DNA from: Flavisolibacter nicotianae
Lineage (GTDB): Bacteria; Bacteroidota; Bacteroidia; Chitinophagales; Chitinophagaceae
Length of the DNA stretch: 64,000 bases
Assembly (NCBI RefSeq): GCF_003628535.1
Contig: NZ_RBCI01000014.1
Span: forward strand, 62,001-126,000
Direction: 5' to 3'
Positions 20,065-39,400 of the stretch are shown one piece after another; positions within the stretch are counted from its first letter, which is position 1; every line of letters begins with the position of its first letter. The position numbers and the translations under genes are program-made. The notes beneath the pieces are model-generated. The model was not told where the DNA came from. It saw nothing but the letters and a program-made list of their open reading frames with translations, and did no database searches.

Positions 20065-20547
20065 TCACTGTGCCGTATCTTCCTTCTTTTTGTCTTTTTT
20101 GAAGATGCTGAAAATCTTGTCCACGAATTTCCGGAGTCCTTTGCGATCCTTTTTTTCTTTTACCACCAACGTATCCGGGGCTTTGATCTCCGGCTTGGGT
20201 GGTTCTTTTTTGGCCACAGTGTCGCCGGGCACGGCATATAGCACGGAGGAATAAATGAGTTTATGCTGCTCATTGTCCTTCCACACCGGCTGCGACGGGT
20301 TGGGAATGAAAATGCCTTTATCCATCAGGCCCTGGACGACATTGGGAATTTGTTTGGCTGTTTGCCAGGTTTTCCCGTCGGTTGTAACAAAAAGGTAGTC
20401 TTTGTTGGCCGAATCGAAATATACATTGGCTCTTGGGTAGTAATAATACTGCGGTTGCAGGGTTACCGGCTTTTTCTCCTCTTTTTTTTCATTGTTGCAG
20501 GCAAGCAAAATAAGCAGGGAAAAAAGCAAAAGGAAACGTGGGTTCAT
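20065..20547 (-). CDS. small lipoprotein
   Basis: 160 residues. The N-terminus MNPRFLLLFSLLILLACNN has a lipobox (LLAC), so the protein should be lipidated and facing the periplasm or outside. The middle (YYYYPRANVYFDSANKDYLF, TTDGKTWQTAKQIP, VWKDNEQHKLIYSSVLYAVPGD) has no family I recognise. The C-terminus is strongly basic (KKDRKGLRKFVDKIFSIFKKDKKKED). It starts 32 nt downstream of the first kinase gene and is the last gene of the kinase/FHA/SEDS locus, so a role at the envelope in that system is likely but unproven. Confidence 0.75.
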   Translation of the reverse strand: MNPRFLLLFSLLILLACNNEKKEEKKPVTLQPQYYYYPRANVYFDSANKDYLFVTTDGKTWQTAKQIPNVVQGLMDKGIFIPNPSQPVWKDNEQHKLIYSSVLYAVPGDTVAKKEPPKPEIKAPDTLVVKEKKDRKGLRKFVDKIFSIFKKDKKKEDTAQ

Positions 20548-20579
20548 GCCAACAGGTATTCAAATGCCATTCCACAACC

Positions 20580-22484
20580 TTACCGCGGCTGTGTATTCAG
20601 GTTCAATTCGTCGAGCAGCTTGCGGGCCGTGGTATCGCCGCCATTGGCTGCCTGTGATAGCAGCTGCCTTGCTTTGTCCACGTCTTTGGTGTAGCTGCAC
20701 TGGTTATAATTGTTGATCTGCAGCCAGGCCGGGTTTTCGGCAAAGAGGTAAAGCACACCCAGCGTCCGTTTTGCCGGGAGGTAGCCGGCATCGCTTGCCT
20801 TCATCAGCAGGGACAAGGCCTGTGTGCAATTCACCGAGGGATTTTTTCCCTGCAGGCCATAATTCCCTGCCTGGTAAAGTGCCTCCGGCACGTTGAACGT
20901 CGACAAAAAATTATAGATCGTCAGGGCTTCTTCCATCTGGTTGGTGCGTACATAGCCCGCTGCCAAGGTAAGCTGGGTTTTGATCTCGTCCTGTGTGGGT
21001 TCGCGGTTTTGCTGCTGTTGTTGTCTTGCATTCCATTCGTCGGCCGTCAGCAGGTTGTCTTTGCGCAGCCAGCCTTTTGAAGTTTGCCCGCGGCTGTTGG
21101 TAAACTCCGTGTACACAAAACCGTTTTGATCTTCATAGGCGGTGATTGGGTCGCCTTTAGAAAGAAATGCATTGCGCTTCGTGGAGGCATCGGGCTCGTT
21201 GTGAAAATAGGTTTTATCCGCGCTGACCCTGTATTCGCCAATCGCCACATTTTGTTTCGGCTGCGTAACCGGGTTGCTTGCCACCTCCTTCTTTTCTTCG
21301 GGTTCTTTCGGTTTTGTGTTCGACCTGATCAGCGCATAGGCAAGACCACTGGCAACCAGCAAGGTAAAAAGGAAAGCTAGGATCCAGGCTGAATTGCGTC
21401 GCGTGTTGCCCCCGTAATCGTCCTGGCCCGGGTAGCGTTCCGCGCCGGCCGTTACGGGCTGAGGCAGCGGCTGCGAACGCAACCGCACCAACTCGGCATC
21501 TTTTGCGGCGAGCTGTTGCTGTAGTTGCTGTTTTTCTTTCAGCAGTTTTTCGGCCTGGTACTGCCAGGGGTTGTGCTCGGTCAGCACTTCGGCACGGTAA
21601 GTTCCCACGCTGCTTGTCAAAATATGATTGTGCAGTTCGATGCCGTTGGCAAAACGTTCCTGTGGTTTTTTGCGCAGGCAACGATAGATTAGACTGAGAA
21701 GCCACTCTGGCACCTGCATTTCTTTTTCTTTTTTCTCCGGGCTCCAGCTATCCGGCAGATGCTGGCGGCGCAGGTCTTTCAGGTCGGGCGGTGTTTGATC
21801 GAGGTGCGCCAGCATCACCATGTTCCGTGCCGACTCGCTGTTGTCTTTCAGCGGAAAGGGCACCTGTCCTGCCAGCAGTTCAAAAAGGATCACACCAAAT
21901 CCGTACACGTCTGTTTGAAAAAGAAGCTGCCCTTCGCTTTGTTCCGGGGCCATGAATTCGATGGCGCCTGCATGACGCAGTGAAGTACGCCGCTGCTCAT
22001 CACTCATTGCGGCCAGGCCGAAATCGAGCAGCATGTAGTTGCCGGTGTGCTTGTTGAACTTGACGTTGTTGCTTTTGATGTCGCCGTGTTTGACATCGAG
22101 CCTGTGGCAGTGCGCCAGCGCATTGGAAAGCTGGATGGTGAAAACAGGATCATGCGGCGGCTTGAGCAGATCTTCCAGGTCGGGCCCCTCAATGAATTCC
22201 ATTTCAATAAAGGGAAAGGAACCCGAATCGGTAAAACCGTGATTAAGAATCTTAACGACGTTCGGGTTGGGCTCTTCGTTGACCTTTTTCAGCTTCCGCA
22301 CCTCGTTTTGAAATGATACATAAGCTTTATCCTGTTCGCTTTCGCTGTAGATAGGCGTCGGCAACAGTTTGACTGCCGTGATGATTTCTCCGATCCGCTT
22401 TGCTTTGTACACCGAGCCCTGGCCCCCTGTCTTCAGGGCACCCATATTTTCCAGTCCTTCCGTAATAGTGAACACTTTCGCCAT
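20580..22484 (-). CDS. transmembrane Ser/Thr protein kinase with SH3-like sensor region
   Basis: 634 residues. The kinase domain (~10-290) has the glycine loop TGGQGSVYK, Lys39, the catalytic loop HGDIKSNN (Asp135, non-RD type), DFG at 154-156 and APE at 179-181. A coiled coil (~310-338, LLKEKQQLQQQLAAKDAELVRLR) leads to one membrane segment at 366-386. The extracytoplasmic part has an SH3-like domain (~416-478, ending SKGWLRKDNL) and a C-terminal Sel1/TPR-like helical region with ALSLLMKASDAGYLPAKRTLGVLYL. The layout matches receptor-type Hanks kinases that sense envelope signals. It shares a 159-bp near-identical tract with the neighbouring kinase gene. Confidence 0.9.
   Translation of the reverse strand: MAKVFTITEGLENMGALKTGGQGSVYKAKRIGEIITAVKLLPTPIYSESEQDKAYVSFQNEVRKLKKVNEEPNPNVVKILNHGFTDSGSFPFIEMEFIEGPDLEDLLKPPHDPVFTIQLSNALAHCHRLDVKHGDIKSNNVKFNKHTGNYMLLDFGLAAMSDEQRRTSLRHAGAIEFMAPEQSEGQLLFQTDVYGFGVILFELLAGQVPFPLKDNSESARNMVMLAHLDQTPPDLKDLRRQHLPDSWSPEKKEKEMQVPEWLLSLIYRCLRKKPQERFANGIELHNHILTSSVGTYRAEVLTEHNPWQYQAEKLLKEKQQLQQQLAAKDAELVRLRSQPLPQPVTAGAERYPGQDDYGGNTRRNSAWILAFLFTLLVASGLAYALIRSNTKPKEPEEKKEVASNPVTQPKQNVAIGEYRVSADKTYFHNEPDASTKRNAFLSKGDPITAYEDQNGFVYTEFTNSRGQTSKGWLRKDNLLTADEWNARQQQQQNREPTQDEIKTQLTLAAGYVRTNQMEEALTIYNFLSTFNVPEALYQAGNYGLQGKNPSVNCTQALSLLMKASDAGYLPAKRTLGVLYLFAENPAWLQINNYNQCSYTKDVDKARQLLSQAANGGDTTARKLLDELNLNTQPR
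22011..22169. repeat. near-identical tract shared with second kinase gene, copy 1
   Basis: These 159 bases, covering the catalytic loop and DFG region, match 23770-23929 base for base except for one inserted base in the other copy. Flanking kinase sequence diverges clearly on both sides. Confidence 0.9.
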
Positions 22485-22752
22485 TGCGTAAATTTAACGC
22501 TCTGCCGAATACTGCCGTTGTTCAGCGAGAGGAATTAACAGCGAGACCGCAGGTTTTACCCAAACGGAGATGTAAAGAGGCCGACCGGACGTTTTCCCGG
22601 CAGGAACGGCAGAATGTATTTCTCCGCAAAAATGTTTGGTCTACATAAAATATTTTGTCCGCATCTGCGACTTGCCACAACAGGAACCTGTGCAAACGGC
22701 AGCGTTTTGCAGGGGCAATTCAACAGCACGAACAGCGGATGCGCAACACAAG

Positions 22753-24244
22753 TCAGCGCCTGTCGGCTGCCTGGTCGTGGACAGTCGTATCTTTTTTCGC
22801 GGGTTTTTCTTTCAAGAACTTTTCTACTGCTTTTTCGGGATTTACCGGCGTTGTTTCTTCCGGTGTTTTTTTCTCGTCTGTCGCCGCATCTTCTGGCAGA
22901 CCTTCGTCGGTGCTCTGCTTCTCTGTGCCATCTTTTGCAACCGAGTCGGCTGCCTGTTTTTTCTTTTGCTCTTTTAGCTGCCGCTTGGCAGCACTCTTGT
23001 TTTCCGAAACCACCGAGGTGATTTGCTCACGGGTTGCGGAAGCCGTATCTCCGGCCGGGTAGGATTCTGTAGCCGTTGTGTTTGTACCTGCCACAGCCGA
23101 ACGATGAAAAACCCAACCGTAAACCGCCAGCCCCGTGGCAAGGAACAACAAGGTCAGTACCGTAGCGAAGGCCGACCTGGAAACCGTTTTTCGTTCGGTG
23201 CCACCGTCTGTGTCCAGCACCGGTTGCCGGCGCAATTCTTCCAGCTCCCGGTCCTGCCGCGCCACGATGGCTTTCAGGTCCTGCACTTCGTAATTCTTTT
23301 CGGCCATTGCCGACTGCCACCGGGAATCCTCCGTTCGCACAAGGCCCGCCACTTCGGCAGTAAAGAGCCGGTGATGTGTGATAAACTCGTGCAGGTCCTC
23401 GCCGTTGGCAAAGCGGTCTTCGGGCCTTTTCTGCAGGCATTTTCCAATCAGGTTAAGGAGCCATTCGGGCACCTGCATTTCCAGCGCCTTTTTTTCTTCC
23501 GGCCAACCAGGCGGCAGCATCGAAGCCCGAAGGGAAAGCAGGTCGGGTGGCGTCGCTTCCATGTGGGCTACCATCACTTTATTCCGTGCCGTTTCACTGT
23601 TGCCGTCAAGCGGGAAGGGCACCCGGCCGGCCAGCATTTCAAACAACACGATGCCAAAGCTGTATACATCGGTCCCGAAAAACATTTTGCCTTCGTTCTG
23701 TTCCGGTGCCATGAATTCGATGGCTCCCGCATGTCGAAGGGAGGTACGCCGCTCCTCGTCGGAAAGCATGGCCAGGCCGAAATCGAGCAGCATGTAGTTG
23801 CCGGTGTGCTTGTTGAACTTGACGTTGTTGCTTTTGATGTCGCCGTGTTTGACATCGAGCCTGTGGCAGTGCGCCAGCGCATTGGAAAGCTGTGATGGTG
23901 AAAACAGGATCATGCGGCGGCTTGAGCAGGTCGCAAAGATCCGGGCCGTCGATGTATTCCATTTCGATAAAGGGAAACCCTCCGGTTTCGCTGATGCCAT
24001 AGCTTAGCAGCTTTACCACGTTTGGATTGGGCTCTTCGGCCACCCGCTGCAGCTTTTTGACTTCGTTGACAAAATCGCGGTAATGCTTGTCGTCTTCGCT
24101 TTGCGAAAAAACGGGTGTTGGCAGGAGTTTGATGGCGGTGATGATCTCTCCCACTCGCCGTCCTTTGTAAACAGAACCCTGTCCGCCGGTACGGATGGCG
24201 CCCATGTTCTCTAAACCCTCGGTGATCGTAAACACTTTTGACAC
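22753..24244 (-). pseudogene. second transmembrane Ser/Thr protein kinase, frameshifted
   Basis: Starting at GTG 24244, the first frame gives SKVFTITEGLENMG, the glycine loop TGGQGSVYKGRR and a normal N-lobe up to HDPVFTI. One extra base near 23893, compared with the paralog, shifts the frame, and the rest (QLSNALAHCHRLD, HGDIKSNN, DFGLAML, FMAPEQ) continues in another frame. Corrected, it would have ~496 residues. After the kinase comes a coiled coil (NYEVQDLKAIVARQDRELEELR), a membrane segment (FATVLTLLFLATGLAVYGWVF) and a charged, low-complexity tail rich in K, E and T without an SH3 domain. The lesion lies in the tract shared with kinase 1, so a recombination or assembly artefact is plausible. 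Confidence 0.85.
23770..23929. repeat. near-identical tract shared with first kinase gene, copy 2
   Basis: 160 bases identical to 22011-22169 apart from one extra base at about 23893, which breaks the reading frame. Confidence 0.9.
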
Positions 24245-24276
24245 GTCGCTTCGTTTTTATAGGTTAGAATAACAAT

Positions 24277-24430
24277 GATATTGGATATTCGAAATTCGAT
24301 ATTTGAAAGTCGCTTATTGCCTAAGTGGCACCGCGTAAACGGTATCAAAAGAATATTATCCCGTCTAGCACAATCCCAATATCGAATATCCTAATATCTA
24401 CTATCTCAATATCTACTATCTCAATCTCGT
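24277..24430. repeat. inverted pair of heptad-period arms
   Basis: The left arm 24277-24311 is gatattg, gatattc, gaaattc, gatattt, gaaagtc. The right arm, from about 24379, repeats caatatc, gaatatc, taatatc and tactatc units, the reverse complement in character. The spacer is about 65 bp. It lies between the FHA gene and the second kinase gene, and the right arm runs into the FHA gene's 3' end. Confidence 0.65.
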
Positions 24431-25209
24431 TCCACGTAACTGAACTGCAGCAAGGCCGATTCGCCCAAAACAATCTGGTCGCCTTCCTGCAAATGATGGC
24501 CAATATGAGTCGACTGCAGGCGAAGCACGTCGCCGCTGCCTGTCTGCACTTTGATCTTGTTGCGCGGCGGTATGCCCCCTTCATCGGCATACAGGAAAAA
24601 GCCACCAACCTCCTTATTCCACTCAATGTGCGCATGCTGGCGGCTGATGTATTTGTTGCTGCTGTTCTGGCTTGCCGAAGAAAAAGCAATGTCATTTTCA
24701 CGCAGAAACCCTTCCGCCGTCTGCACACGTTTTTCCCGGCCGATACAGACTTTGCCGCCTTTGCTCGTCAGGATGTACAGCTCTTTTTCGGCTTCCCCGC
24801 TTGCCACCCGCAGGTAAGCCGTGGTGGGCGTCGTCAGTGTCGGTTGCTTTCGGGTAGAAACATGCAGGGCTACCGGCAAGTCCTTTGCCTTGATCGCCTC
24901 CGCCGGCAATGCAGGCACGAACAAAAGTTCCAGTGCCGCGTTGTGCGGTAATTGAAGCGCATAATCATCGGCAATGCGCTGCACCTCTTCCTCCCTGAAC
25001 TTGTCCGGCTGGTCCAGGTACACGGACGCTTCGTACAGGTGTTTTTCCTCATCGGTTGGCGATAGAAACAGTTGCAGACCTTTGATGTTCACGCCTTCGC
25101 CTCCCTCCCATTTTTGCAACTGGTCTTTAATGAATTGCAACAAGCCATGCCGGATCGTTTTGACATCCGGGGCCGATGCTTCGCCTTTTTGTTTAAACAA
25201 ATCGAACAT
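24421..25209 (-). CDS. FHA-domain protein
   Basis: 262 residues. The C-terminal ~100 residues form a forkhead-associated domain: VCIGREKRVQ (GR), NKYISRQHAHIEWN (the SRQHA phosphothreonine-binding core), then GDQIVLGESALLQF. The N-terminal half (QFIKDQLQKWEGGEGV...LQLFLSPTDEEKHLYEASVYL) has no family I recognise. FHA domains bind phosphothreonine made by Hanks kinases. With two kinases downstream and a PP2C and SEDS-transpeptidase upstream, it is the likely phospho-reader of this locus, comparable with FhaB in Actinobacteria. It is 224 bp after the SEDS gene and 176 bp before the second kinase. Confidence 0.88.
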   Translation of the reverse strand: MFDLFKQKGEASAPDVKTIRHGLLQFIKDQLQKWEGGEGVNIKGLQLFLSPTDEEKHLYEASVYLDQPDKFREEEVQRIADDYALQLPHNAALELLFVPALPAEAIKAKDLPVALHVSTRKQPTLTTPTTAYLRVASGEAEKELYILTSKGGKVCIGREKRVQTAEGFLRENDIAFSSASQNSSNKYISRQHAHIEWNKEVGGFFLYADEGGIPPRNKIKVQTGSGDVLRLQSTHIGHHLQEGDQIVLGESALLQFSYVERD

Positions 25210-25433
25210 ACTGATGGTGGTGATTTTGTTTTATTCTTATTCAAGAAACAGTCCAGATTTTGAAACCCGGCCCTCAATCCTCTAAGAGTCACGCAGCACT
25301 TCCACAACCCTCGCTTTGACAAGCCCCTTCACGGCCCATGTTTGTCTGCCAACTGAGGCTTTTTGTTTTTTTGTCCCGGCGACAAACTATCGGTTTAGCT
25401 TCCGTTGCGTCGCACCTTTCAACGTCCAGAACG

Positions 25434-28400
25434 CTATTGGGCAGGCAACGTTACTGGCTGAGCCTGGCCTTGTACGGCAGCCGGTCCTGCTTTGGAGGGC
25501 TGTGCCGTTTCAAAACTCCGGATGTAACCGTACTTCTGCAAAACCGGGATAACATGTGTACCGGCGAGACGGACCGCCACGCTGGACCCTTTGGTTTTTT
25601 CGATGCGGACACAAACAACCACGTGCCCGGTTCCCTTGTTTTTTGGGGCAAAAAATACATACCATCCGTCGTTGATGCGTTCGCCTTTGAGGATACGTTC
25701 CGGCGTACCGGTTTTCCCCGCAACCGTAAACCCGCCCAGCTTATCTTTCTTGTTGGCACTTTGCTCTTTCATGTATTTCGTCATCAGCGCGGCTGCCTGC
25801 GGCTCTTTCAGCAGCGGAACGCCCTGTTCCGGTGCCAGCGTCGAGTCGCTTATTTTCATCACGTACCGGTTGTGCATCATGGTGCCGCCGTTGGCAATCG
25901 CCGATGCCACACGTGCCATGGCAGCCGGTGTGGCAATCAGTTCGCCCTGCCCCCAGGCCATGCCCGAGATTCCGCGGCCACGGGTGCGGTGAATGTCATT
26001 GGGATTGTAAGAGCGGATGCTGGTAAATTCTGTCTTGCGCCAGATGGACTTCCACCGCTCCCACTGTTCGGGGTTGTTCATGTTGCCGTCGTAATAGTAG
26101 CCGCCCACACCCCGAAGGAAAAGACCGGCCTTCAGGTAGATATCACCCATTTCCTCTTCGAGCCGGAATTCGTTCGCCAGGCGAATGAAGAAGGGGTTGT
26201 TTGATTTAACAATGCCGCGTTCGATGTTGATATTACCGGTTTCGTCCGGCTCTTCGCTGCGGGTGCGGATCAGGTCTCCCGGCCGAACCAAAATCGTCTT
26301 GGTTGCTGCGGCCAGTCCCAGTTTGTTAAATGCCGCGGAAGCCGTGATCAGTTTGGCCGTAGAACCGGGTTGCGACGCATAGGTAAACCCGATGTCCCTT
26401 GTGCTGAGCAGGTAGGGCAAACGGTTCAGTTCCGCATTGGTCAGGCTCATCCGCTCCGGGTCGTTCACCGGTGGTGCCGGGTACATGGCCGATGCCAGCA
26501 CATCACCCGTATTGTCTTCCATCACCACGACCGAAATCCGGCTGTTCTTCAGCGTATCGAGTGTTTGCAGCGACTGTTGCAACTGGGTTTGCAAGCCTGC
26601 GTCCATGGTCAATTGCACATCGCGGTTTCGTTCCTTGAACTTTTCCACTTCGGCGCTGTTGATGCCGGCAAGCAGCAGGGGTGCCAGGGCACTGAAGTCA
26701 CGCTTGGCCACCTGCATTTCCACTTCCGTTCGGGGCAAAAAGCGGTTTTCGCGGAAGCGGCTTGCCCTGACGGCAAACTTGGTTTCCGGTGCCGGGAAGC
26801 CTCTCAGTTCGGCCATGTGCTCGTATTCGGCAAAATAGCCATTGGGACTTCCCATAAAAGCGCCGGTATTCATATCACCAACCCAGAAAAACATCGACTC
26901 GTAAAACGGATAGTAGCGGTCGAGGCGCTTGTGCGCCAGCGACTGGAGCGCCGTCGGGTTCAGGCCGGCGGAGATCAGCGAGTCCTGCTGCTGCAAATAT
27001 TGTTGCGGGTTGCCGGTTGCCAGAACGCGGCCGTTCCGGTCGAGCAGGTTGCCGGCACCAATCCGGTTCATCAAAATTGCGATGCGGGGATTGTAACTGA
27101 ACATCCGTGCGCCACTGCGATCAGCAACCAATGCAGGCTGTACCACCCATTTGGAGGGGTTGAACAAATATTTTCCCACGCTGGCACCAAGCAGGCTCAC
27201 ACCGGCAATGGCGGCAAGCAGGGCAGGCATGATGTTGTGGTCCTGTTGCCTGGCAATGAATCGCATTTGCGCCGGCGAACCCTGGATGATGGAAGCCGAT
27301 AAAAGAAAGCCCGCCGCGACCATGTTGGCAATGAGCGAAGAACCGCCGTAACTCATAAACGGCAGCGAGACTCCCGATAGCGGCAGGGCGCCAACCGATC
27401 CTCCTGCGATCAGTAAAAATTGGACAAAGGTGCAGATGCCGATGCCGGCACAGAGGTAGAAAAGAAAGGGCGTTCCCGTTTGTCGCCCAATCAAAATAGA
27501 CCGGTGCAGGTAAAGCAGGAAGGCAATGAACACACAGATGATTCCCGCCCAGCCAAATTCTTCACCCATCGACGGCAGGATCATATCGGTGTGTGCTTCC
27601 GGGATGGTTTTGGCAAAGCCTTCGCCGATCCCCTGCCCCTGCACACCGCCACTGCTCATGGCCCAAAGGCCGTTGGCAATCTGGTCGCCGCCAAATACTT
27701 CGTTGTTCCAGGGATCCTGCCAGATCGCTTTACGGTCTACCAGCCGCTGCACAGGACCGGGAAACGCTTTTTCGATGTAGGGAATTTTATCCAGTAACAG
27801 GAAGCCGGCCATCACGACCATAACCATGATTGCCGATTCGGCCAGTTGTTTTTTGACAAACAGGGTGAAAAGCACGAGCAGGCCAAGGGTGATGGCCGTG
27901 GCGAGGAGAACATTGTTGCCGGTCAGCCAGATGGTGCCGACATAAACGATGGCGGTTCCAACCGCGTAGGCAAAATCGCCCCGGGAAAAGGAAAACAGGA
28001 TGATGAATGTAAAACAAGCCACCATGGCCGGACCCAGGTCACCGAGAATAAGGAACAGTCCCAATGATGCCAGGATAGCGATCAGTGCAAAACCGAAAAA
28101 TTGCCAGCGCTTTTGCCAGCGGCCGTATTCGGAAATAAATTTTTCATTCGTGGCAAAATAGCCGGCCAGGAAAACCACGATCAGGAACTTTACAATCTCG
28201 CTGGGCTGAAAGCCAAACAGGTTTACTTTCACGCCGCTGCCTTCAGGGCCTGAACCAAACAAAATGGTGAGCAGCAAAAGTCCCATTGCCAAAACCGCCC
28301 AGGGCCAGCCGTTGGCCGCCTTGCTGTTGGTCCGGAAAAAGAAGAGACGGAACAAACCAGAATCGGTAGTAAACCGGCGCAGGTTGAACAACTGCAGGAT

Positions 28401-29561
28401 GGCCATGCCGGCAATTCCCCCAACGAAATAGATCAATGTGCTCTTGCCAAAAAAGCGGTCACGCAACGGATCCTGCAGCGATAGCAGGGTTAAAAACGAA
28501 ATTCCGGTCAGCAGCATCAGCACGGGCAGGATGAGTTGATCCGCGGAAGGAAAGCGAAGGGAAAGAAAAAGGTGCAGCAAAAAAAAGCCGGCAAAAAAAA
28601 CAGCCACGATGATCCAGTACCAACGCGAGACTTCGTCGGGCATGCGAACGATCAGGGCTTTTTCCTTTCGCAGGTTGTTGAAGTCGCGGGTGGAAAACAT
28701 TTTGATTGTATGCGGTGAGCCGGAAAAACGAAAGTTCGCGTCTTTATTAAGTTCCTGAACGCCTTTGGATGCGCCGAACTGGTAACCGGGTTTCAGCGGC
28801 AATACCTCGTAGGCCTCGTTACCTGGCAGGCCATCAAAAACAAAATTTCCGTTGCCATCCGTGCGTGCATAAGCAGCCAGAGACACCAGCTGCCGGCGAT
28901 TGCCCGAGTCGAGGCGATAGGTTCTGACCAGTGTCGGCGTGGTGTTCACCACCGTCCGCCCTTCATCCTGGATTTCTTCACTGTACACACTGTCCTGCGG
29001 AATGATCATGTTCAGGCGAACCAGTACACCGGCCATCGCTTTTTCATCCTTTGCCTGGATGGTTCCCCTGATGGCGTGTTTCCCCATGCCCAGACCAACC
29101 TCCGACGGAAGCTTCGGCGGGTTGCGCCGCTCCGCATCGAAGCGTAGCGAGTCGGTACCGGCAAACCCAATCAGGATCCGTGAAAGTTTGGCCCGGCGGC
29201 GAAAGGATTCCCCGCCTTTTGCATAGGCTTCATCGGTATTGATTTCAAAGACACGCTTGTTCAGTTCCCCGATGTTATCAATTTCGTTGCCGCTGCTGAA
29301 CCCCTGCGCAGCAACGGCACGAATGAGAGCTACATCCTGCGGGTCTTCGAAGTAAAATCCTTTTTGCAGCAGGTTCGCCAGGTTCTCTGCAGGTTTGGGC
29401 GCATTCAGGTTCACCATCGAACCATCGGCCAGGCGACGCGGCACTTCGGCAAAATCTTTTTCCAGCACCGAATACAATTGCATAAAAATGTACAGCAACA
29501 CAGCCCCGATGGCGAACAGGAAAACACGTTCTAAATTTCTACTCCGGATAAAAGAAGCCAT
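25434..29561 (-). CDS. SEDS glycosyltransferase fused to class B transpeptidase (FtsW/RodA-PBP)
   Basis: 1375 residues. TM1 at ~13-31, then a ~275-residue extracytoplasmic part with a carboxypeptidase-regulatory-like segment (GNGNFVFDGLPGNEAYEVLPLKPGY). From ~315 to ~835 comes a polytopic SEDS domain with GFQPSEIVKF, GDLGPAMV, EAHTDMILPSMGEEFG (Asp659, matching the essential FtsW/RodA aspartate) and LSGVSLPFMSYGGSS. The C-terminal third is a transpeptidase with all three motifs: STAK (Ser1067), SNN (Ser1120) and KTGT (Lys1283). One chain therefore holds peptidoglycan polymerase and crosslinker, which are usually separate proteins (RodA-PBP2, FtsW-PBP3). It starts 8 nt after the PP2C stop, so they are co-transcribed. 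Confidence 0.92.
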   Translation of the reverse strand: MASFIRSRNLERVFLFAIGAVLLYIFMQLYSVLEKDFAEVPRRLADGSMVNLNAPKPAENLANLLQKGFYFEDPQDVALIRAVAAQGFSSGNEIDNIGELNKRVFEINTDEAYAKGGESFRRRAKLSRILIGFAGTDSLRFDAERRNPPKLPSEVGLGMGKHAIRGTIQAKDEKAMAGVLVRLNMIIPQDSVYSEEIQDEGRTVVNTTPTLVRTYRLDSGNRRQLVSLAAYARTDGNGNFVFDGLPGNEAYEVLPLKPGYQFGASKGVQELNKDANFRFSGSPHTIKMFSTRDFNNLRKEKALIVRMPDEVSRWYWIIVAVFFAGFFLLHLFLSLRFPSADQLILPVLMLLTGISFLTLLSLQDPLRDRFFGKSTLIYFVGGIAGMAILQLFNLRRFTTDSGLFRLFFFRTNSKAANGWPWAVLAMGLLLLTILFGSGPEGSGVKVNLFGFQPSEIVKFLIVVFLAGYFATNEKFISEYGRWQKRWQFFGFALIAILASLGLFLILGDLGPAMVACFTFIILFSFSRGDFAYAVGTAIVYVGTIWLTGNNVLLATAITLGLLVLFTLFVKKQLAESAIMVMVVMAGFLLLDKIPYIEKAFPGPVQRLVDRKAIWQDPWNNEVFGGDQIANGLWAMSSGGVQGQGIGEGFAKTIPEAHTDMILPSMGEEFGWAGIICVFIAFLLYLHRSILIGRQTGTPFLFYLCAGIGICTFVQFLLIAGGSVGALPLSGVSLPFMSYGGSSLIANMVAAGFLLSASIIQGSPAQMRFIARQQDHNIMPALLAAIAGVSLLGASVGKYLFNPSKWVVQPALVADRSGARMFSYNPRIAILMNRIGAGNLLDRNGRVLATGNPQQYLQQQDSLISAGLNPTALQSLAHKRLDRYYPFYESMFFWVGDMNTGAFMGSPNGYFAEYEHMAELRGFPAPETKFAVRASRFRENRFLPRTEVEMQVAKRDFSALAPLLLAGINSAEVEKFKERNRDVQLTMDAGLQTQLQQSLQTLDTLKNSRISVVVMEDNTGDVLASAMYPAPPVNDPERMSLTNAELNRLPYLLSTRDIGFTYASQPGSTAKLITASAAFNKLGLAAATKTILVRPGDLIRTRSEEPDETGNINIERGIVKSNNPFFIRLANEFRLEEEMGDIYLKAGLFLRGVGGYYYDGNMNNPEQWERWKSIWRKTEFTSIRSYNPNDIHRTRGRGISGMAWGQGELIATPAAMARVASAIANGGTMMHNRYVMKISDSTLAPEQGVPLLKEPQAAALMTKYMKEQSANKKDKLGGFTVAGKTGTPERILKGERINDGWYVFFAPKNKGTGHVVVCVRIEKTKGSSVAVRLAGTHVIPVLQKYGYIRSFETAQPSKAGPAAVQGQAQPVTLPAQ

Positions 29562-29569
29562 GGTCTCGG

Positions 29570-30970
29570 TTATTTGGGTAACGAATTAGGAGTCACAAGA
29601 AAGGTATCGCGAAGCGTTCCGCTCAGGGCACTGTCGGCCGGTAAAAGCAACTGCCGCTGCACCGGCACTTTGCAATTCAGAAATTGCACGTTGCGCAATT
29701 GCACACCCTTGCCCTGCAGCACAAGAGCAACAGGAAAATTTTGAAAGACCATGTTTTGAAGCGAAAGGAATTTATTGTTGGCTGTCACAAAAAATGCCGG
29801 TCCTGCAAACGCCGAGTCGGCGCGGAAAACAACGCCACGGCCGTCAATTAGCAATGTATCCTGGCGCACGTATAACGTGTCGCCAACTGCAATGGATTTG
29901 CCGAAACCCGACTCCGTAAGCACCAGGGAATGTTGTGCAAGTCCCAGGCTGTCTGCTACTTTCTTTTCTGCGTCGTTAGGACTGTAGGCGGCAACGAACA
30001 CCGGCTTTTTCTCCTGTGCATTGTTGCGGAAGAGCAACCATAAAACAGCGGCTGCCAACAGGAAGCAAAGCACCACGAGAAAGAGAACGATCTCGTTTCG
30101 TTTACGGGCTTTGGAAGGCACGGGGACTTCCGGGGTTTTTTCCGCCGGCGTCACTACGGGAACCGGTTCTTTCCGTTCGTTTTTTTTTGTGAGAACGGGT
30201 TTGGTGGCCCGCAAACGAACCGGTTTTTTGTTATTGCTGACGATGACCACCGTGATGTTGTCTTTTCCGCCGGCATTGTTGGCCGCGTCGATCAGGGCTT
30301 TTGCCTTGTCGGCCAGCGGGGCGCCGGAAAGCAGGATGGAACTCATCGCACGGTTGTCGACCAGGTCACTCAACCCATCGCTGCAAAGCAGGAGCATGTC
30401 GCCCGGCAAAAACGGTGATGAACCCGTTTCGATATAATCTGATTTCACGTCGATCTGCGGATCAAAGCCGAGGGCTTTGTTGATCTCGTTGCGCTTGGGA
30501 TGCGCCATCGCCTCTTTTTCCGACAAGCGACCACTGTCTTCGAGGAAACCGACAAAGGAATGGTCCTTGGTTAGTTTTACGAGCGACTGGTCGCGGAGAA
30601 GATAAAGTCTTGTGTCGCCGACATGCGCATAGTAAAACTGGTTGCTTTCCACGTCGACAAGGGCGATGGTCAGCACGCAGGCCATCTGACTGTTCCCTTT
30701 GTTGTTGATCTTCTCCTGGTAGATGGCCTGGTTGGCCTGCAGCAGGCCTTCGCGAAGCGTTTGCACCGGGTCGGCCGCCACGGTTTGCAATTGTTTCCGA
30801 ATCGTTTCCCGTGCGATCTCCGCTGCCACTTCACCGCCTTCGTAGCCACCTACGCCGTCAATAACGCAGGCCACGATCCAGCCATTGGAAAGTTTTTCCG
30901 CAAGAAACGTATCCTCGTTGTTATCCCTGATCCGTCCTGTATGGGTAACGCCAACAAAATTTTCAGCCAT
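29570..30970 (-). CDS. transmembrane PP2C-type Ser/Thr phosphatase
   Basis: 466 residues from ATG 30970 (MAENFVGVTHTGRIRDNNED). The PP2C domain (~1-247) has RDNNED, DGVGGYEGG (metal-binding Asp38), HVGDTRLYLL, LLCSDGLSDLV and GGKDNITVVIV. A Pro/Lys-rich linker, a membrane segment at 294-314, and an extracytoplasmic C-terminus follow. That end (LLIDGRGVVFRADSAFAG, FLSLQNMVFQNFPVALVLQG, VQLRNVQFLNC) looks like a short right-handed beta-helix. It should dephosphorylate targets of the linked kinases, like PstP. Its start overlaps the stop of a 32-residue membrane ORF by 8 nt, implying translational coupling; a longer start at 31024 would cover most of that small ORF. Confidence 0.9.
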   Translation of the reverse strand: MAENFVGVTHTGRIRDNNEDTFLAEKLSNGWIVACVIDGVGGYEGGEVAAEIARETIRKQLQTVAADPVQTLREGLLQANQAIYQEKINNKGNSQMACVLTIALVDVESNQFYYAHVGDTRLYLLRDQSLVKLTKDHSFVGFLEDSGRLSEKEAMAHPKRNEINKALGFDPQIDVKSDYIETGSSPFLPGDMLLLCSDGLSDLVDNRAMSSILLSGAPLADKAKALIDAANNAGGKDNITVVIVSNNKKPVRLRATKPVLTKKNERKEPVPVVTPAEKTPEVPVPSKARKRNEIVLFLVVLCFLLAAAVLWLLFRNNAQEKKPVFVAAYSPNDAEKKVADSLGLAQHSLVLTESGFGKSIAVGDTLYVRQDTLLIDGRGVVFRADSAFAGPAFFVTANNKFLSLQNMVFQNFPVALVLQGKGVQLRNVQFLNCKVPVQRQLLLPADSALSGTLRDTFLVTPNSLPK

Positions 30971-31061
30971 TCTTCCTGTGGGTGTTTTTGATTTCAGCAA
31001 AATGGGCAATGAGCATGAACACACAAATGCCGAGAAGTACCAGTGAGATAATGGATGACAT
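30963..31061 (-). CDS. 32-residue single-pass membrane micropeptide
   Basis: ATG at 31061 opens 2 nt after the FHA-like gene's stop (31064) and the frame closes at 30963, overlapping the PP2C ATG by 8 nt. The peptide is MSSIISLVLLGICVFMLIAH followed by FAEIKNTHRKNG, that is one membrane helix with a basic tail. Its exact fit between two tightly packed genes is what makes it credible. Its role is unknown; it could be a small subunit of the SEDS/kinase complex or only a translational coupling device. Confidence 0.55.
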   Translation of the reverse strand: MSSIISLVLLGICVFMLIAHFAEIKNTHRKNG

Positions 31062-31063
31062 GG

Positions 31064-32026
31064 TTAGGGTTTAAAAATGTTAACGCCGACGATGCCGTTC
31101 AACAGGATGCGTGAATTGAACGGCAGCTCGATCCACTGCGGATTCGCTTCACTGCTATGCAAAACATCCCGTTCGTTCAGCACCGTTTTTTCGCCGAATG
31201 AGGCGAGATAAAATTTATTCTCGTTCTTGTTATAACGGATGCGCAGGTGCGGTGAATTCACCCAGTCCGACGGAATTTTAAAATAGTCGCCGCTTTCATT
31301 TTTCTCCTCTTTTCCCGTGACAGTGATTTCCTCGTCGCGCATGAAATATTCGATTTTTTTGCCGGCAAATTCCTTGTCGGGAATGATGGTCTCGAACCGC
31401 GCCAGTGCATTTACCGAAGCCGGTGCCTTCACCTGCCGCTCATCGTAAACAAGGTCTTCGCGGTAGGGCACTTCGTAATAGCCTTCGCTGTAAAAATGAA
31501 AGCCCTTGAGAATATCAGGGTTGATGTCGAAGGTTTGGGCAATACCGGTCTGCCGGGGAATAAAGGTCACCCGCAGGTTTTCGGCCGACTGCGTATTGGG
31601 CGCTGTATCGGGCAACAGTTTTCCAATGAAGCTGATGTCGCCCCTTGCATAATCGGGGTGCGAAACAAAGCGGAAGATCCACCGGCTTGCAGACGGTTCC
31701 ACCGTTTTTCCCAGGCCGCGGTATTCTTTGAGCAGGTCGTAAAACTTTTTCAGCGATTCGTGCACGATGATGCCAAAAATGCCTTTTTTATTTTCCATGA
31801 AATGATGGTAGTCCTCGGGGTTGAGGCAAATAATGTATTCATGGTAAAAGACCACCCTGTCGGCAAACGAAAGTTCTTCGATCGACTCCCGGAATTTTTC
31901 GATGATATAGCGATAGACGTTATTGGGCGTCAGCGATGGCGGCGTGTTGTCCACACGGTCGGCTTCTTTTTTTAAAAAGAAATCGTGAAGACCAATGCGT
32001 TGCCAGAAAGATTGTTTCGACTTCAT
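31064..32026 (-). CDS. FHA-like protein, FhaA-like layout
   Basis: 320 residues. The N-terminal ~200 residues (IIEKFRESIEELSFADRVVFYHEYIICL, GIIVHESLKKFYDLLKEYRG, WIFRFVSHPDY) match no family I can name. The C-terminal ~100 residues (DWVNSPHLRIRYNKNENKFYL, EKTVLNERDVL, WIELPFNSRILLNGIVGVNIF) have the strand pattern of an FHA domain, but the canonical GR...SRxHA residues are weak: PHLRIRY stands where SRxHA is expected. An unknown N-terminal domain plus a C-terminal FHA recalls FhaA of Actinobacteria, which also heads this kind of gene set. It is the first gene of the minus-strand locus. Confidence 0.65.
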   Translation of the reverse strand: MKSKQSFWQRIGLHDFFLKKEADRVDNTPPSLTPNNVYRYIIEKFRESIEELSFADRVVFYHEYIICLNPEDYHHFMENKKGIFGIIVHESLKKFYDLLKEYRGLGKTVEPSASRWIFRFVSHPDYARGDISFIGKLLPDTAPNTQSAENLRVTFIPRQTGIAQTFDINPDILKGFHFYSEGYYEVPYREDLVYDERQVKAPASVNALARFETIIPDKEFAGKKIEYFMRDEEITVTGKEEKNESGDYFKIPSDWVNSPHLRIRYNKNENKFYLASFGEKTVLNERDVLHSSEANPQWIELPFNSRILLNGIVGVNIFKP

Positions 32027-32435: not shown

Positions 32436-34562
<2,127 letters not shown>

Positions 34563-34564
34563 CC

Positions 34565-36385
34565 ATGGAGCCAATTGCTATTTCGAAGCGAACGGTCGGT
34601 GTGAACTTCCGCGACGACGGCCGGGCCGAAATCCGGCTATGGGCGCCACTTGCAGAGCAGGTTGCAATCCTATCCGGTGAAACAACCATTGCCCTGGAAA
34701 AGGAGGATCCCGGTTATTGGATAACCGTTACCGACAGGCTCCACGAAGGCTCCCGGTACCGCATCCGGATTGACGACCGAAACCCCTTCCCTGATCCAAC
34801 ATCCCTGTCGCAGCCCGACGGTGTTCATGGCCCTTCGGAGGCCGTTGACCTGACCGGTTTCCAGTGGCAGCAAAACGGGTGGACCAACCTGCCGCTTGAA
34901 GACTACATCATCTACGAGTTGCATACCGGCACCTTCACTAGCGAAGGCACATTTGCTTCGCTGGAAGAAAAACTGGATCACCTGAAAGAGCTTGGCGTGA
35001 CGGCGATCGAACTCATGCCGGTGGCACAGTTTCCCGGCAGCCGCAACTGGGGCTACGACGGTGTGTATCCTTTCGCCGTGCAAAATTCGTATGGCGGTCC
35101 GCACGGCCTGCAACACCTGGTCGACGCCTGTCATCAAAAAGGCCTGGCGGTGATCCTGGACGTGGTGTACAACCACCTGGGACCTGAAGGAAATTATTTC
35201 GGCGAGCTGGGACCATTCTTCACACGAAAGTACCATACCCCCTGGGGCAGTGCCGTCAACTTCGATGATCGCTGGTGCGATGGCGTTCGCCGCATGGTTG
35301 TGGAAAATGCGCTGATGTGGTGCCGCGATTTTCACATCGATGCCCTGCGGATCGACGCAGCGCATGCCATCAGGGATTTCAGTGCTGTTCATATCCTGAA
35401 AGAGCTGCGGCTGCGGCTCGATGAATTGATGCAGAAGACAGGAAAAAAGTATTACCTGATCGTCGAACAGGACTTGAACGACACACGCTACATCGACCCG
35501 TTGCACAACGGCGGTTACGGCATGGACGCACAGTGGATCGACGAGTTTCACCATGCCTTGCGGGTAACGACCGGGCAGGCGCAAACAGGCTACTACGAAG
35601 ACTTCAACGGCATCGAAGACCTGGCCAGGGCTTACCGCGATGCGTACGTGTACACGGGCCAATGGTCGCCGCACCGGAAGCGTTTTTTTGGCACGACGAC
35701 AGAAAATTGCGCAGGAAAGCAGTTTGTTGTTTTCTCGCAAAACCACGATCATATCGGCAACCGCATGCTGGGCGAACGGACAGGCCGGTTGCTTTCCTTC
35801 GAGATGCAAAAACTGGTGGCTGCCGCCGTGCTTTTAAGTCCTTACTTGCCCCTGTTGTTCATGGGTGAAGAATGGGGCGAGACCCAGCCTTTCCTCTACT
35901 TTGTCAGCCACTCCGATGAAGCGCTTGCCGAAGCGGTGCGCACGGGAAGAAAGAAAGAATTTGCAGCCTTCCATACCGAAGGCGAACCGCCTGACCCGAT
36001 GGCCGACGACACCTTTCACCAATCCCGCCTGCACTGGCATCTGATGACAGACGAAAAACACGATGCGATGCTGGCGTTTTACAAAGCCCTCATCCAACTG
36101 CGCAAACGGGAACGGGCCTTGCGAACCTTGAACCGAAAGGCATTGGCAGTGGATGTGAACAGCGAAAACCAGGTACTTGTGTTGCACCGCTGGACGGCCG
36201 ACAGCAAGGTTATTTGCCTGCTGAACTTTTCAACCGAACAACGTCTTCATTCGCTCGACCGGACATCGGAGTGGCAGGCACTGCTCTGCTCTGCCGGTTC
36301 GGAATGGGGCGGGCCGGGCTGCATACAGTCATCCGGACACGGTATCACGCTGCAACCGCAATCGGTCAGCGTTTTCAAACGATAA
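34565..36385 (+). CDS. treZ: malto-oligosyltrehalose trehalohydrolase
   Basis: 606 residues from ATG 34565, 2 nt after the glgX stop. The N-terminal domain (VGVNFRDDGRAEIRLWAPLAEQVAIL) is followed by a GH13 barrel with YELHTGTFTSEGTF, DVVYNHLGPEGNYF, IDALRIDAAHAIRD (nucleophile Asp), LIVEQDLND (acid/base Glu) and FSQNHDHIGNRMLGER. TreZ cleaves trehalose from the end of maltooligosyl trehalose made by TreY. The motifs separate it from GlgB branching enzyme, which it otherwise resembles. An upstream in-frame start would overlap glgX and is not needed. Confidence 0.92.
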   Translation: MEPIAISKRTVGVNFRDDGRAEIRLWAPLAEQVAILSGETTIALEKEDPGYWITVTDRLHEGSRYRIRIDDRNPFPDPTSLSQPDGVHGPSEAVDLTGFQWQQNGWTNLPLEDYIIYELHTGTFTSEGTFASLEEKLDHLKELGVTAIELMPVAQFPGSRNWGYDGVYPFAVQNSYGGPHGLQHLVDACHQKGLAVILDVVYNHLGPEGNYFGELGPFFTRKYHTPWGSAVNFDDRWCDGVRRMVVENALMWCRDFHIDALRIDAAHAIRDFSAVHILKELRLRLDELMQKTGKKYYLIVEQDLNDTRYIDPLHNGGYGMDAQWIDEFHHALRVTTGQAQTGYYEDFNGIEDLARAYRDAYVYTGQWSPHRKRFFGTTTENCAGKQFVVFSQNHDHIGNRMLGERTGRLLSFEMQKLVAAAVLLSPYLPLLFMGEEWGETQPFLYFVSHSDEALAEAVRTGRKKEFAAFHTEGEPPDPMADDTFHQSRLHWHLMTDEKHDAMLAFYKALIQLRKRERALRTLNRKALAVDVNSENQVLVLHRWTADSKVICLLNFSTEQRLHSLDRTSEWQALLCSAGSEWGGPGCIQSSGHGITLQPQSVSVFKR

Positions 36386-36404
36386 TTTTTTTTTACTATT
36401 CAAC

Positions 36405-39400
36405 ATGTTCAACCCCATCTCGACATACCGCGTACAGCTTCATAAAGATTTTCCACTCAGCGACCTTGAAAAGATCATTCCATACCTGCAGCAAATGGGT
36501 ATCGGCACGCTGTATGCGTCGCCCATCTTTACGGCAGTTCCCGGCAGTGTTCATGGTTATGATTCGGTGGATCCCCTGCATGTAAACCCGGAGATCGGTA
36601 CCGGGGAACAGCTTCGTAACGTGGCGCAACAACTGGCGGACAGCAACATTCACTGGTTGCAGGATATCGTTCCCAATCACATGGCCTTCGATCACCGCAA
36701 TGGCTGGCTGGCGGATGTATTGGAAAAAGGGCAACAGTCTGCGTACGCCTCTTTTTTTGACATTGCGTGGACCTCTCCGCTTTTCAACGGCAAATTGATG
36801 GTGCCGTTTTTGGGCAAGTCGCTGGAAGACGCTGTGCAGGACGGCGAGTTAAAAATCGTGGTGGAAGAAGGCCGGCTCTTCCTCGCCTATTTTGATAGCC
36901 GCTGGCCACTGAAGACAGGCTCCTACGTCACGCTTCTGCGCCCCGCAGCCGGCAACGACGCACTGGAAACCCTGCTGCAGGAACTTGACATTTTGCACAA
37001 AACGGAAGACAGTCTCCAACTGCAAAAAGGCTGGGAAGAGTTTCTGTTGCAACTGCGGTCGCTGATGAAGAACGAGCGGGTAAGCCAGGCCATTCTCCAG
37101 GCCATTGACCAGTATAACCAAGACCCGCAAGCCCTCCTCGCCCTGGCCAAAGAGCAACACTACCAGCTTTGCCACTGGCAAGAAACGGATCACCGCATCA
37201 ACTATCGCCGCTTCTTTACCGTGAATGGCCTGATCTGCCTGAATATCCAGGACGAGAATGTGTTGCATACGCACCATGCCTTCCTGCAAACGCTCGTCAG
37301 CGAAGGTTTGATCCGGGGTTTGCGCATCGATCACATTGACGGTTTGTACAACCCGGCCGAATACCTTCATCGCCTGCGTGCCCGCAGCGGTGATGAGATC
37401 TACATCGTTGTCGAAAAAATACTGGAACGCGGGGAGCAGCTACCGGGCGACTGGCCGGTACAGGGCACAACCGGTTACGATTTTCTCTCGCAGGTCAACA
37501 ACCTTTTCACCCATCAAAAAGCCGAAGAATCGTTCACCGAATTTTACCAGGACCTCACCGGAAATTATAGCAGCATCGAACAGCAGTTGCACAACAAAAA
37601 AGCCCTGATCCTGGAACAGCACATGGGCGGCGAACTGGAAAATCTTTATCGTCTCCTGTTGCAATTGAACATCGTTGACAAACGAACACTGGCCCGCATC
37701 CCTTCGGAAGACCTGAAAACGGTGATTGGCGAGTTCCTCGTGCAATGCCCTGTGTACCGGTTCTACGGCAGTCAATTCCCATTGTCGGGAGAAGAGGAAG
37801 ATGCCCTGCGCCAGATTTTCAACCGCCTGCTGCGAACCGAAGAATCGCAGGAAGCGGTCCGCATCCTGGAAGCGGTCTTCCTGCAAAGACCCCATGAGGG
37901 CAATGCGGAAATGAACGATCGCATCCGCCAGTTCTACCAGCGTTGCATGCAGTTTACCGGGCCGCTGATGGCTAAGGGTGTCGAAGATACCCTGATGTAC
38001 ACCTGCAACCGCTTTATCGGGCACAATGAAGTTGGCGATTCACCGGAAGCCTTTGGTGAATCCATCGAGGGCTTTCACCAGCAAATGCAGTCAAAGCAAC
38101 AACGGTGGCCGCTTTCGCTCAACGCAACAGCCACCCACGATACCAAACGCGGCGAAGACGCCCGTGCACGGTTAAACGTTTTGACCGACCTGCACGACGA
38201 ATGGCTGGCAGCCGTTGCAGAATGGCGGAACCTGAACAAAGAACTGGTGAAAGGCGACCTGCCGGATGCGAATGACGAATACCTGATTTACCAGGCTTTG
38301 ACAGCCAACTATCCCCTGCCGGGCGAAGACGAAGACGATTTTGCCAACCGCTTCCAGGCATACATCCGCAAAGCAGTGCGGGAAGCCAAGATCCATTCCA
38401 ACTGGACATCACCGAATGAAGCATACGAAACCGCGGCAACCTCGTTTGCACTGGCACTGCTCGACAAAAGCAAGCCATTCTGGAAAAGTTTTTCGGCTTT
38501 CCTGGAAACCATTGCCGAACATGGCGTCATCAATTCGCTTTCGCAGGTTCTGTTGAAATTCACCTGCCCGGGTGTGCCTGATGTATACCAGGGCTGCGAA
38601 CTGTGGGACTACAGCTTTGTCGATCCCGATAACCGGCGTCCCGTCGACTATGAAAGACGCCTGCAATTGCTCCAGGCATTCGAAGAAAAAAGCGAAGAGG
38701 AACTGTTCGACCATCTCTGGGAAAACCGATTCAATGGAAGCGCAAAGCTGTGGCTTGTGCGGACTATGCTGCAGATGCGAAAGGGTAACCCGGATGCCTT
38801 TGCCGAAGGCGAATACATTCCGTTGCAGGTAGAGGGACATTACCGCAATCACGTACTGGCGTTTGCCCGCCGGCACAAGCGGTCGGTACACGTGGTGGCC
38901 ATTCCCCTGCACACGGCGATCATCAGCAAAGAACAGGGACGTCCGTTTTTTGAAGTCGACTGGAAAGACACAAAGATCAACCTGCCGCGGGAGATCGAAA
39001 GCAACCTGGAAGCACAGTTCAATAAAGCGACTGTTGAAAAAGGGAAAGGACTGCTGCCGGGTGAATTGTTCAACCGCTTCCCCGTGGCCATTCTTCGCGG
39101 CCGCCAGGCGATCAATGAAAGAGGCGCCGGTATTCTTCTCCACCTCACTTCTCTCCCTTCGCCATTCGGGGTTGGAGACATGGGACCGGAGGCAAGAGCT
39201 TTTGCAGATTTCCTGTACCGCAGCAAACAAAAATACTGGCAACTGCTTCCGCTGAATCCCACGGAAGAAGGCCAGGGCCATTCACCCTACAGTGCGCTTT
39301 CAAGCAAGGCCGGTTATCCTTTGCTGCTTTCGCCAGAACGTATGGTAAACGACGGTTTGCTGCAACCCGAAGACCTCCAACGGCATCACCTGCCGCGGGA

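Follow-up and report, generated by a model that had tools for sequence, protein, structure and literature searches.

Gene content of the locus

We analysed a stretch of 64,000 nucleotides (the window) from the 6.1 Mb genome of Flavisolibacter nicotianae. On its minus strand, positions 20065-32026 hold eight genes, transcribed in the order FHA-fold protein, micropeptide, PP2C phosphatase, SEDS-transpeptidase fusion, FHA protein, two kinase genes and lipoprotein. They are listed here in that order with the evidence used for each (aa, amino acids; TM, transmembrane segment; PBP, penicillin-binding protein; ORF, open reading frame; E, expectation value).

31064..32026, minus: FhaA-like protein, 320 aa (AlphaFold model, VIA-align, FhaA_N matches in relatives, hhalign, residue counts)
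30963..31061, minus: single-pass membrane micropeptide, 32 aa (sequence, conservation in relatives)
29570..30970, minus: transmembrane PP2C-type Ser/Thr phosphatase, 466 aa (family matches, TM 294-312)
25434..29561, minus: SEDS glycosyltransferase - class B PBP transpeptidase fusion, 1375 aa (Pfam, motifs, TM)
24421..25209, minus: FHA protein, 262 aa (Pfam FHA, E 7.8e-5)
22753..24244, minus: second receptor Ser/Thr kinase gene, frameshifted in the assembly (ORFs 23639-24244 and 22753-24000)
20580..22484, minus: receptor Ser/Thr kinase, 634 aa (Pkinase E 1.3e-30, TM 368-386)
20065..20547, minus: putative lipoprotein, 160 aa (lipobox-like LLAC read from the sequence)

The locus is probably a self-contained phospho-signalling module around a third dedicated peptidoglycan synthase, and a Bacteroidota relative of the actinobacterial fhaA-fhaB-pstP-rodA-pbpA-pknA-pknB operon. 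It forms a closed circuit, in that all Pkinase matches of the genome (E<=0.001), its single PF00498 FHA match (E<=0.01) and its single Stp1-type PP2C match (E<=0.01) fall within it. The genome also carries a RodA gene and an FtsW gene, with a class B PBP gene near each (the names RodA/FtsW and PBP2/PBP3 being assigned from neighbourhood and tree), and the fusion is therefore a third synthase.

Both catalytic parts of this synthase were found by Pfam in the one 1375-aa chain (SEDS, E 1.1e-46; transpeptidase, E 1.1e-24). The chain begins with a TM (15-33) and a region of about 34-310, followed by the SEDS part (about 311-760), a second TM (about 777-799) and the transpeptidase (1010-1330). All seven aligned fusions keep D659, which we take to be the catalytic Asp of the SEDS HTD motif, together with S1067/K1070 (SxxK), S1120/N1122 (SxN) and K1283-T1284-G1285 (KTG). 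By its motifs the protein thus qualifies as a SEDS glycosyltransferase and a class B PBP, both activities being predicted. Hydropathy indicated one TM in the kinase, one in the PP2C and the extra TM ahead of the SEDS part of the fusion. If the kinase and phosphatase domains are cytoplasmic, their tails, residues 34-310 of the fusion and the transpeptidase would lie in the periplasm. Loop 395-419 of the fusion would then be cytoplasmic; it contains a threonine pair (T398/T399) that is kept in four of seven sequences, with one threonine in a fifth, and is a candidate phosphosite.

Turning to the regulatory genes, the PP2C matched the Stp1/IreP family at 209.8 bits, below the cut-off of 230, and Pfam PP2C_2 at E 8.7e-17; its tail is predicted to lie across the membrane from the phosphatase domain. 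The FHA protein gave a model of high quality (pLDDT 89.2) with FHA structural matches. Its family keeps the phosphothreonine-binding residues GR (51/51), SxxH in the form SRxH (51/51) and N (50/51), as expected of a phosphothreonine reader. In two deep Bacteroidota relatives, a Swt1-like HEPN domain was found at the N-terminus of the downstream FHA protein (L133 11935-13305, E 1.5e-25; L134 11979-13253, E 7.4e-22); such a domain is not a usual companion of cell-wall genes.

The two kinase genes (22753-24244 and 20580-22484) have in common a fully identical tract of more than 100 bases. Beside it both are without 23-24 bases that all seven kinases aligned from relatives contain, and one of the two genes is therefore frameshifted. 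This pattern fits an assembly artefact at a repeat and gene conversion alike. In the kinase at 20580..22484 the C-terminal tail gave SH3_3 and Sel1 matches, both sub-threshold, and against the PASTA-kinase model NF033483 the protein reached 129.4 bits, short of the cut-off of 450 that would make it a PASTA kinase. A relative of the lipoprotein gene occurs near part of the other loci only. An earlier, preliminary description of this DNA had given the same inventory, with RodA and PbpA joined in one protein, two receptor kinases, and SH3-like and beta-helix sensor domains in place of PASTA. The inventory and the fusion agree with our results. As to the rest, two kinase genes are present, one of them not intact in the assembly; PASTA indeed had no match, and the sensor domains named in its place are unsupported.

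Conservation and distribution of the module

When a collection of species genomes (stated to number 84,980) was scanned for the fusion, 288 relatives came up. Gene linkage was counted in the best 80 of these (tblastn, same strand, within the fetched flanks), so that the counts are weighted to close relatives. All five main genes were on one strand in 73 of the 80 loci, and the other seven are each cut by a contig end on a side that could have held the gene not seen. Upstream of the fusion we found the FhaA-like gene in 78/80 and the PP2C gene in 80/80 loci, and downstream of it the FHA gene in 79/80. A kinase gene was seen in 75/80 (downstream alone in 28 loci, upstream alone in 17, and on both sides of the fusion in the other 30); it was not seen in 5. 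The preliminary description had proposed that gene set and order be compared across Bacteroidota, and this comparison finds the gene set kept together in close relatives, with divergent forms of the module in other classes. Among the named hosts are Mucilaginibacter, Pedobacter, Segetibacter, Flavisolibacter and Cnuella. Judged by this locus, records of Flavisolibacter longurius come closest among the named ones (fusion identity 80-81%).

The module is widespread but patchy in Bacteroidota, a fusion match being present in 7 of 79 family genomes sampled and in 12 of 296 sampled genomes of the phylum (E<=1e-60). In Spirosoma oryzicola the module (FHA, PP2C, two kinases, fusion, FHA) lies on a 137-kb plasmid typed as non-mobilizable (L147, NZ_CP089545.1 63336-91286). 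Plasmid carriage may be one route to the patchy distribution.

Beyond the locus, the divergent genes at 32436-40616 presumably encode GlgX-, TreZ- and TreY-like glycogen/trehalose enzymes. The first of them also adjoins the locus in L033 (80% identity), and a 708-aa ORF stands at the corresponding place in L039 and L040.

These observations bear on an alternative in which the fusion serves as a synthase for a particular stage or stress (desiccation, osmotic shock, an encystment-like state), while the kinases mainly regulate expression or other targets and not its activity. The patchy presence, the carriage on a plasmid in S. oryzicola and the presumed glycogen/trehalose enzymes next door all speak for it, and many of the host genera are known from soil. 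The kinases and the PP2C are, however, membrane proteins encoded beside a membrane enzyme, and we regard this alternative as unlikely, if worth keeping in view.

The first protein and the micropeptide

The first protein of the locus is, by profile comparison, homologous to actinobacterial FhaA, which is new here. It consists of an FhaA_N-type N-terminal domain and a degenerate C-terminal FHA fold (residues 205-320), the latter supported by the AlphaFold model and VIA-align. The Foldseek and VIA lists for the models of both FHA-fold proteins were filled by FHA-domain matches, so that the N-terminal domains (residues 30-137 of the FhaA-like protein) were left uncovered, and a solved-structure search with the two FHA profiles gave weak matches (best E 1.2 and 0.015). 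FhaA_N itself was recognized in a deep relative, G204, at 28.4 bits, above the cut-off of 25, and below that cut-off in G106, G252 and the same-genus G380. Profile alignment by hhalign gave a probability of 97.1 (E 4.8e-11, 262 columns). The link to the window protein was thus reached via divergent relatives, HMMER alone being insufficient. At positions set by alignment, the arginine of GR was found in 0/60 and the serine of SxxH in 7/60 sequences; of the residues of a phosphothreonine reader, the FHA fold of this protein thus has lost the arginine and, in most cases, the serine.

In G106 (L133 3572-5842) and G252 (L134 4449-6653), an SLT lytic transglycosylase with LysM repeats (four matches) lies directly upstream of FhaA, which again indicates peptidoglycan. 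In G252, a kinase that bears a WD40 propeller, matched in seven stretches, is also encoded some 4 kb ahead of FhaA (L134 104-2617).

The gene that follows encodes the micropeptide and ends in a stop codon that shares bases with the start codon (ATG) of the PP2C gene. We searched 450 bases around and after the end of the FhaA-like ORF in the 78 of 80 loci where that ORF was in reach. All of them (78/78) contained a short ORF that includes a highly hydrophobic segment, and a short ORF with the motif [HN]F..[IV]K was likewise present in 78/78. In a shuffled control, hydrophobic short ORFs appeared in 3 of 190 stretches (38 loci), these stretches of 180 bases being shorter than the 450-base search. 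A TM peptide occupies the equivalent place in the divergent relatives L136, L147, L133 and L141, and less clearly in L038 and L037. The place between FhaA and PP2C is that of FhaB in Actinobacteria; here no FhaB was found in it, and the TM-only micropeptide takes it up. Since actinobacterial FhaB starts with a hydrophobic segment, we compared the two, and shuffling gave p 0.002-0.52 across 14 comparisons. The micropeptide may be a residual membrane anchor of FhaB, for which its position is suggestive and its sequence a weak guide. The locus in any case adds a conserved membrane micropeptide, of a kind that annotation is likely to miss.

Ancestry of the fusion

We built a SEDS tree (42 sequences, 359 columns, 19 fusions), a transpeptidase tree (44 sequences, 315 columns, 19 fusions) and a concatenated tree (30 taxa, 10 fusions, 674 columns). 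Class A PBPs and partial or unfetched matches (e.g. L203, L204, L219, L222) were left out of all trees, and unpaired Bacillus and Paenibacillus genes out of the concatenated one. The SEDS tree is divided by a split with 99.5/100 support. On the canonical side are the RodA and FtsW types of E. coli and Bacteroidota and the FtsW/SpoVE types of Bacilli, Clostridia and one actinobacterium; on the other are the 19 fusions, the SEDS proteins of two actinobacterial operons and the FHA-linked SEDS of Monoglobus. The native RodA groups with E. coli RodA (98.5/100) and the native PBP2 with MrdA (97.2/97); the clade on the FtsW side has little support in the SEDS tree (36.8/57). In the concatenated tree, support was 100 for the canonical clade, 95 for a Gram-positive FHA-linked clade and 100 for the fusion clade.

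Alternative placements were compared by the approximately unbiased (AU) test. Grouping of the fusion with Bacteroidota RodA/PBP2 was rejected (p 7e-6), as was grouping with Bacteroidota FtsW/PBP3 (p below 1e-6), with all RodA pairs (p 0.003, the constraint tree possibly not fully searched) and with all division-type pairs (p 3e-4). Constraint trees H1-H4 were built under LG+F+I+G4, H4 being the one possibly not fully searched; H5 had 60 iterations, and scoring was under LG+F+G4. The smallest AU values vary between runs (8e-7 versus 4e-20 for one tree) and mean "very small" only. As judged from these alignments, an origin of the fusion from either native pair, RodA/PBP2 or FtsW/PBP3, is rejected, and both the fusion and the actinobacterial operon pair fall outside the canonical clade. 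The canonical, Gram-positive FHA-linked and fusion clades form an unrooted three-way split, so that the placement of the root decides whether the latter two are sisters, as they would be with a root on the canonical side.

Several results weigh against reading the locus as a self-contained module related to the actinobacterial operon. No PASTA match was obtained in a Pfam scan of the locus proteins, and the PbpA dimerisation domain PF21922 was found in 0/7 fusions scanned at E<=10. The window FhaA-like protein is without any Pfam match, FhaA_N included, and hmmscan of 60 orthologues likewise detected FhaA_N in 0/60. The transpeptidase tree alone is compatible with the SEDS tree and does not resolve the position of the fusions (48.9/56). 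The fusion is missing from most of the sampled phylum genomes. In the deepest relatives, G204, G090 and G109, neither PP2C nor kinase was seen in the 20 kb around the fusion, and in G106 a kinase was not seen within the 20 kb read. In G204, however, FHA, FhaA_N and PP2C genes stand side by side on a separate 9.3-kb contig (L139, G204:C44). Its second, very divergent fusion (L135, G204:C121; 1307 aa) has a kinase upstream, and downstream a sensor-like protein with Reg_prop, Y_Y_Y and HATPase_c.

The preliminary description had left open an origin by convergence, in which Bacteroidota would have gathered the kinase, PP2C, FHA, SEDS and transpeptidase genes on their own and the operons would not share an ancestor. 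The missing PASTA and PF21922 matches would agree with this, as would the variable position of the kinase among the 80 loci. Chance would, however, have to produce twice both the combination of FhaA_N and FHA in the first gene and the order FhaA, small membrane protein, PP2C, SEDS, transpeptidase. Because the first protein is a homologue of FhaA, we consider convergence improbable. The locus thus appears related to the actinobacterial operon, common ancestry being favoured, by vertical descent or by old transfer. More speculatively, the fusion might belong to a third ancient, kinase/FHA-controlled SEDS-transpeptidase lineage, already present in an ancestor common to Actinobacteria, Clostridia and Bacteroidota, or else passed among these groups at a very early time. 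It would have stayed unfused in Gram-positives and been fused in the diderm Bacteroidota, where FhaB would have shrunk to the micropeptide anchor and its phospho-reading passed to the downstream FHA protein. We put this scenario forward tentatively, as a whole that is doubtful rather than far-fetched.

Finally, a defence-type kinase module, suggested by PADLOC models that score well on the kinases (PD-T4-6, best 2.1e-41) and on the PP2C (PDC-M21C, 6.2e-7), was rejected as extremely improbable: these matches are explained by generic kinase/PP2C similarity, the fusion, FHA protein, FhaA-like protein and lipoprotein gave none at E<=0.01, and the neighbours in the 80 loci are the same cell-wall set.

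Proposed function

Kinase control of peptidoglycan synthesis is the best reading of the locus, and a plausible one. The receptor kinases, through their periplasmic tails, would sense some envelope state. They would phosphorylate threonines of the module itself, for example in those loops of the fusion that are predicted to be cytoplasmic (T398/T399 being candidates), and the intact FHA protein could dock onto these phosphothreonines. With its FhaA_N domain and phospho-blind FHA fold, the FhaA-like protein may provide a scaffold, while the transmembrane PP2C would reset the phosphorylation state. The result would be control, whether on/off or positional, over one chain combining glycan polymerisation (SEDS) and crosslinking (transpeptidase), apart from RodA/PBP2 and FtsW/PBP3.

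Ser/Thr kinase steering of peptidoglycan synthesis has been studied mainly in Gram-positive and mycobacterial cells. The locus would offer a homologous Gram-negative version, missing from many relatives and so perhaps dispensable, in which FhaA-type control could be tested by clean deletions. Here polymerase and crosslinker are in one polypeptide, and the genome showed no kinase, Stp-type phosphatase or FHA reader other than those encoded beside it. The locus is relevant, too, to how the operon arose and to the number of SEDS lineages. We found no description of it in Bacteroidota among the matches listed from the open-licence PMC literature.

Comparison with known systems

The PASTA kinase and Stp phosphatase pairs of Gram-positive bacteria are the best NCBIfam matches of the kinase and PP2C found here; unlike them, the Bacteroidota proteins score below both curated cut-offs and have no PASTA. 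The RodA-PBP2 and FtsW-FtsI synthases have the same two catalytic domains and motifs, whereas the Bacteroidota protein is fused and forms a separate clade. In the clostridial operon of Monoglobus pectinilyticus (NZ_OY725743.1), FHA, SEDS and PbpA-type transpeptidase (PF21922) genes are likewise adjacent; they are unfused, no PP2C or kinase is annotated in the 17-kb stretch (its table being incomplete), and the record has no FhaA_N match.

For the actinobacterial operon, the main text of PMC6554272 reports that linkage of pstP, rodA, pbpA and the PASTA kinase is conserved throughout Actinobacteria, and that of pknB and fhaA in a subset of Firmicutes; "Bacteroidetes" appears nowhere in that main text. 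The same text gives operon parts such as pknA and pknB as essential in Gram-positive and mycobacterial cells, and passages of PMC11898655 describe FhaA as a regulator of the placement of the cell-envelope machinery. We compared the locus with two such operons, from Nocardia farcinica (NZ_LN868939.1) and Tsukamurella tyrosinosolvens (NZ_LR134456.1), both in collection records labelled as plasmids. The Nocardia order is FhaA (FhaA_N, 132.8 bits), FhaB, PP2C, SEDS, PbpA (PF21922), kinase, PASTA kinase. In Tsukamurella the annotated order is DUF3662/FHA, FHA, SEDS, PBP2, kinase, PASTA kinase; a PP2C is unlisted in its incomplete gene table, which has a gap at the corresponding place.

The Bacteroidota locus differs from these operons in the fusion of SEDS and transpeptidase, with its extra N-terminal TM and presumed periplasmic region, in the downstream position of the FHA protein, in the micropeptide at the place of FhaB and in the degenerate FHA fold of the FhaA-like protein. 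It also differs in giving no match to PASTA or to PF21922 (present in Nocardia), in a kinase that is sometimes upstream, and in adding a third SEDS set to those of RodA and FtsW. The resemblance seen in the preliminary description nevertheless extends further than proposed there, to a shared order and an FhaA homologue. In both systems a homologue of FhaA comes first, its FhaA_N plus C-terminal FHA architecture being reached here by homology through relatives and not by a direct match in the window protein; a transmembrane PP2C, a SEDS protein, a class B transpeptidase and nearby receptor kinases complete the set, and in neither system does the SEDS protein fall within the canonical RodA/FtsW clade. 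Written out as FhaA - micropeptide - PP2C - SEDS-PBP - FHA (often followed by a kinase), the Bacteroidota order thus matches the actinobacterial order FhaA - FhaB - PP2C - RodA - PbpA - kinases.

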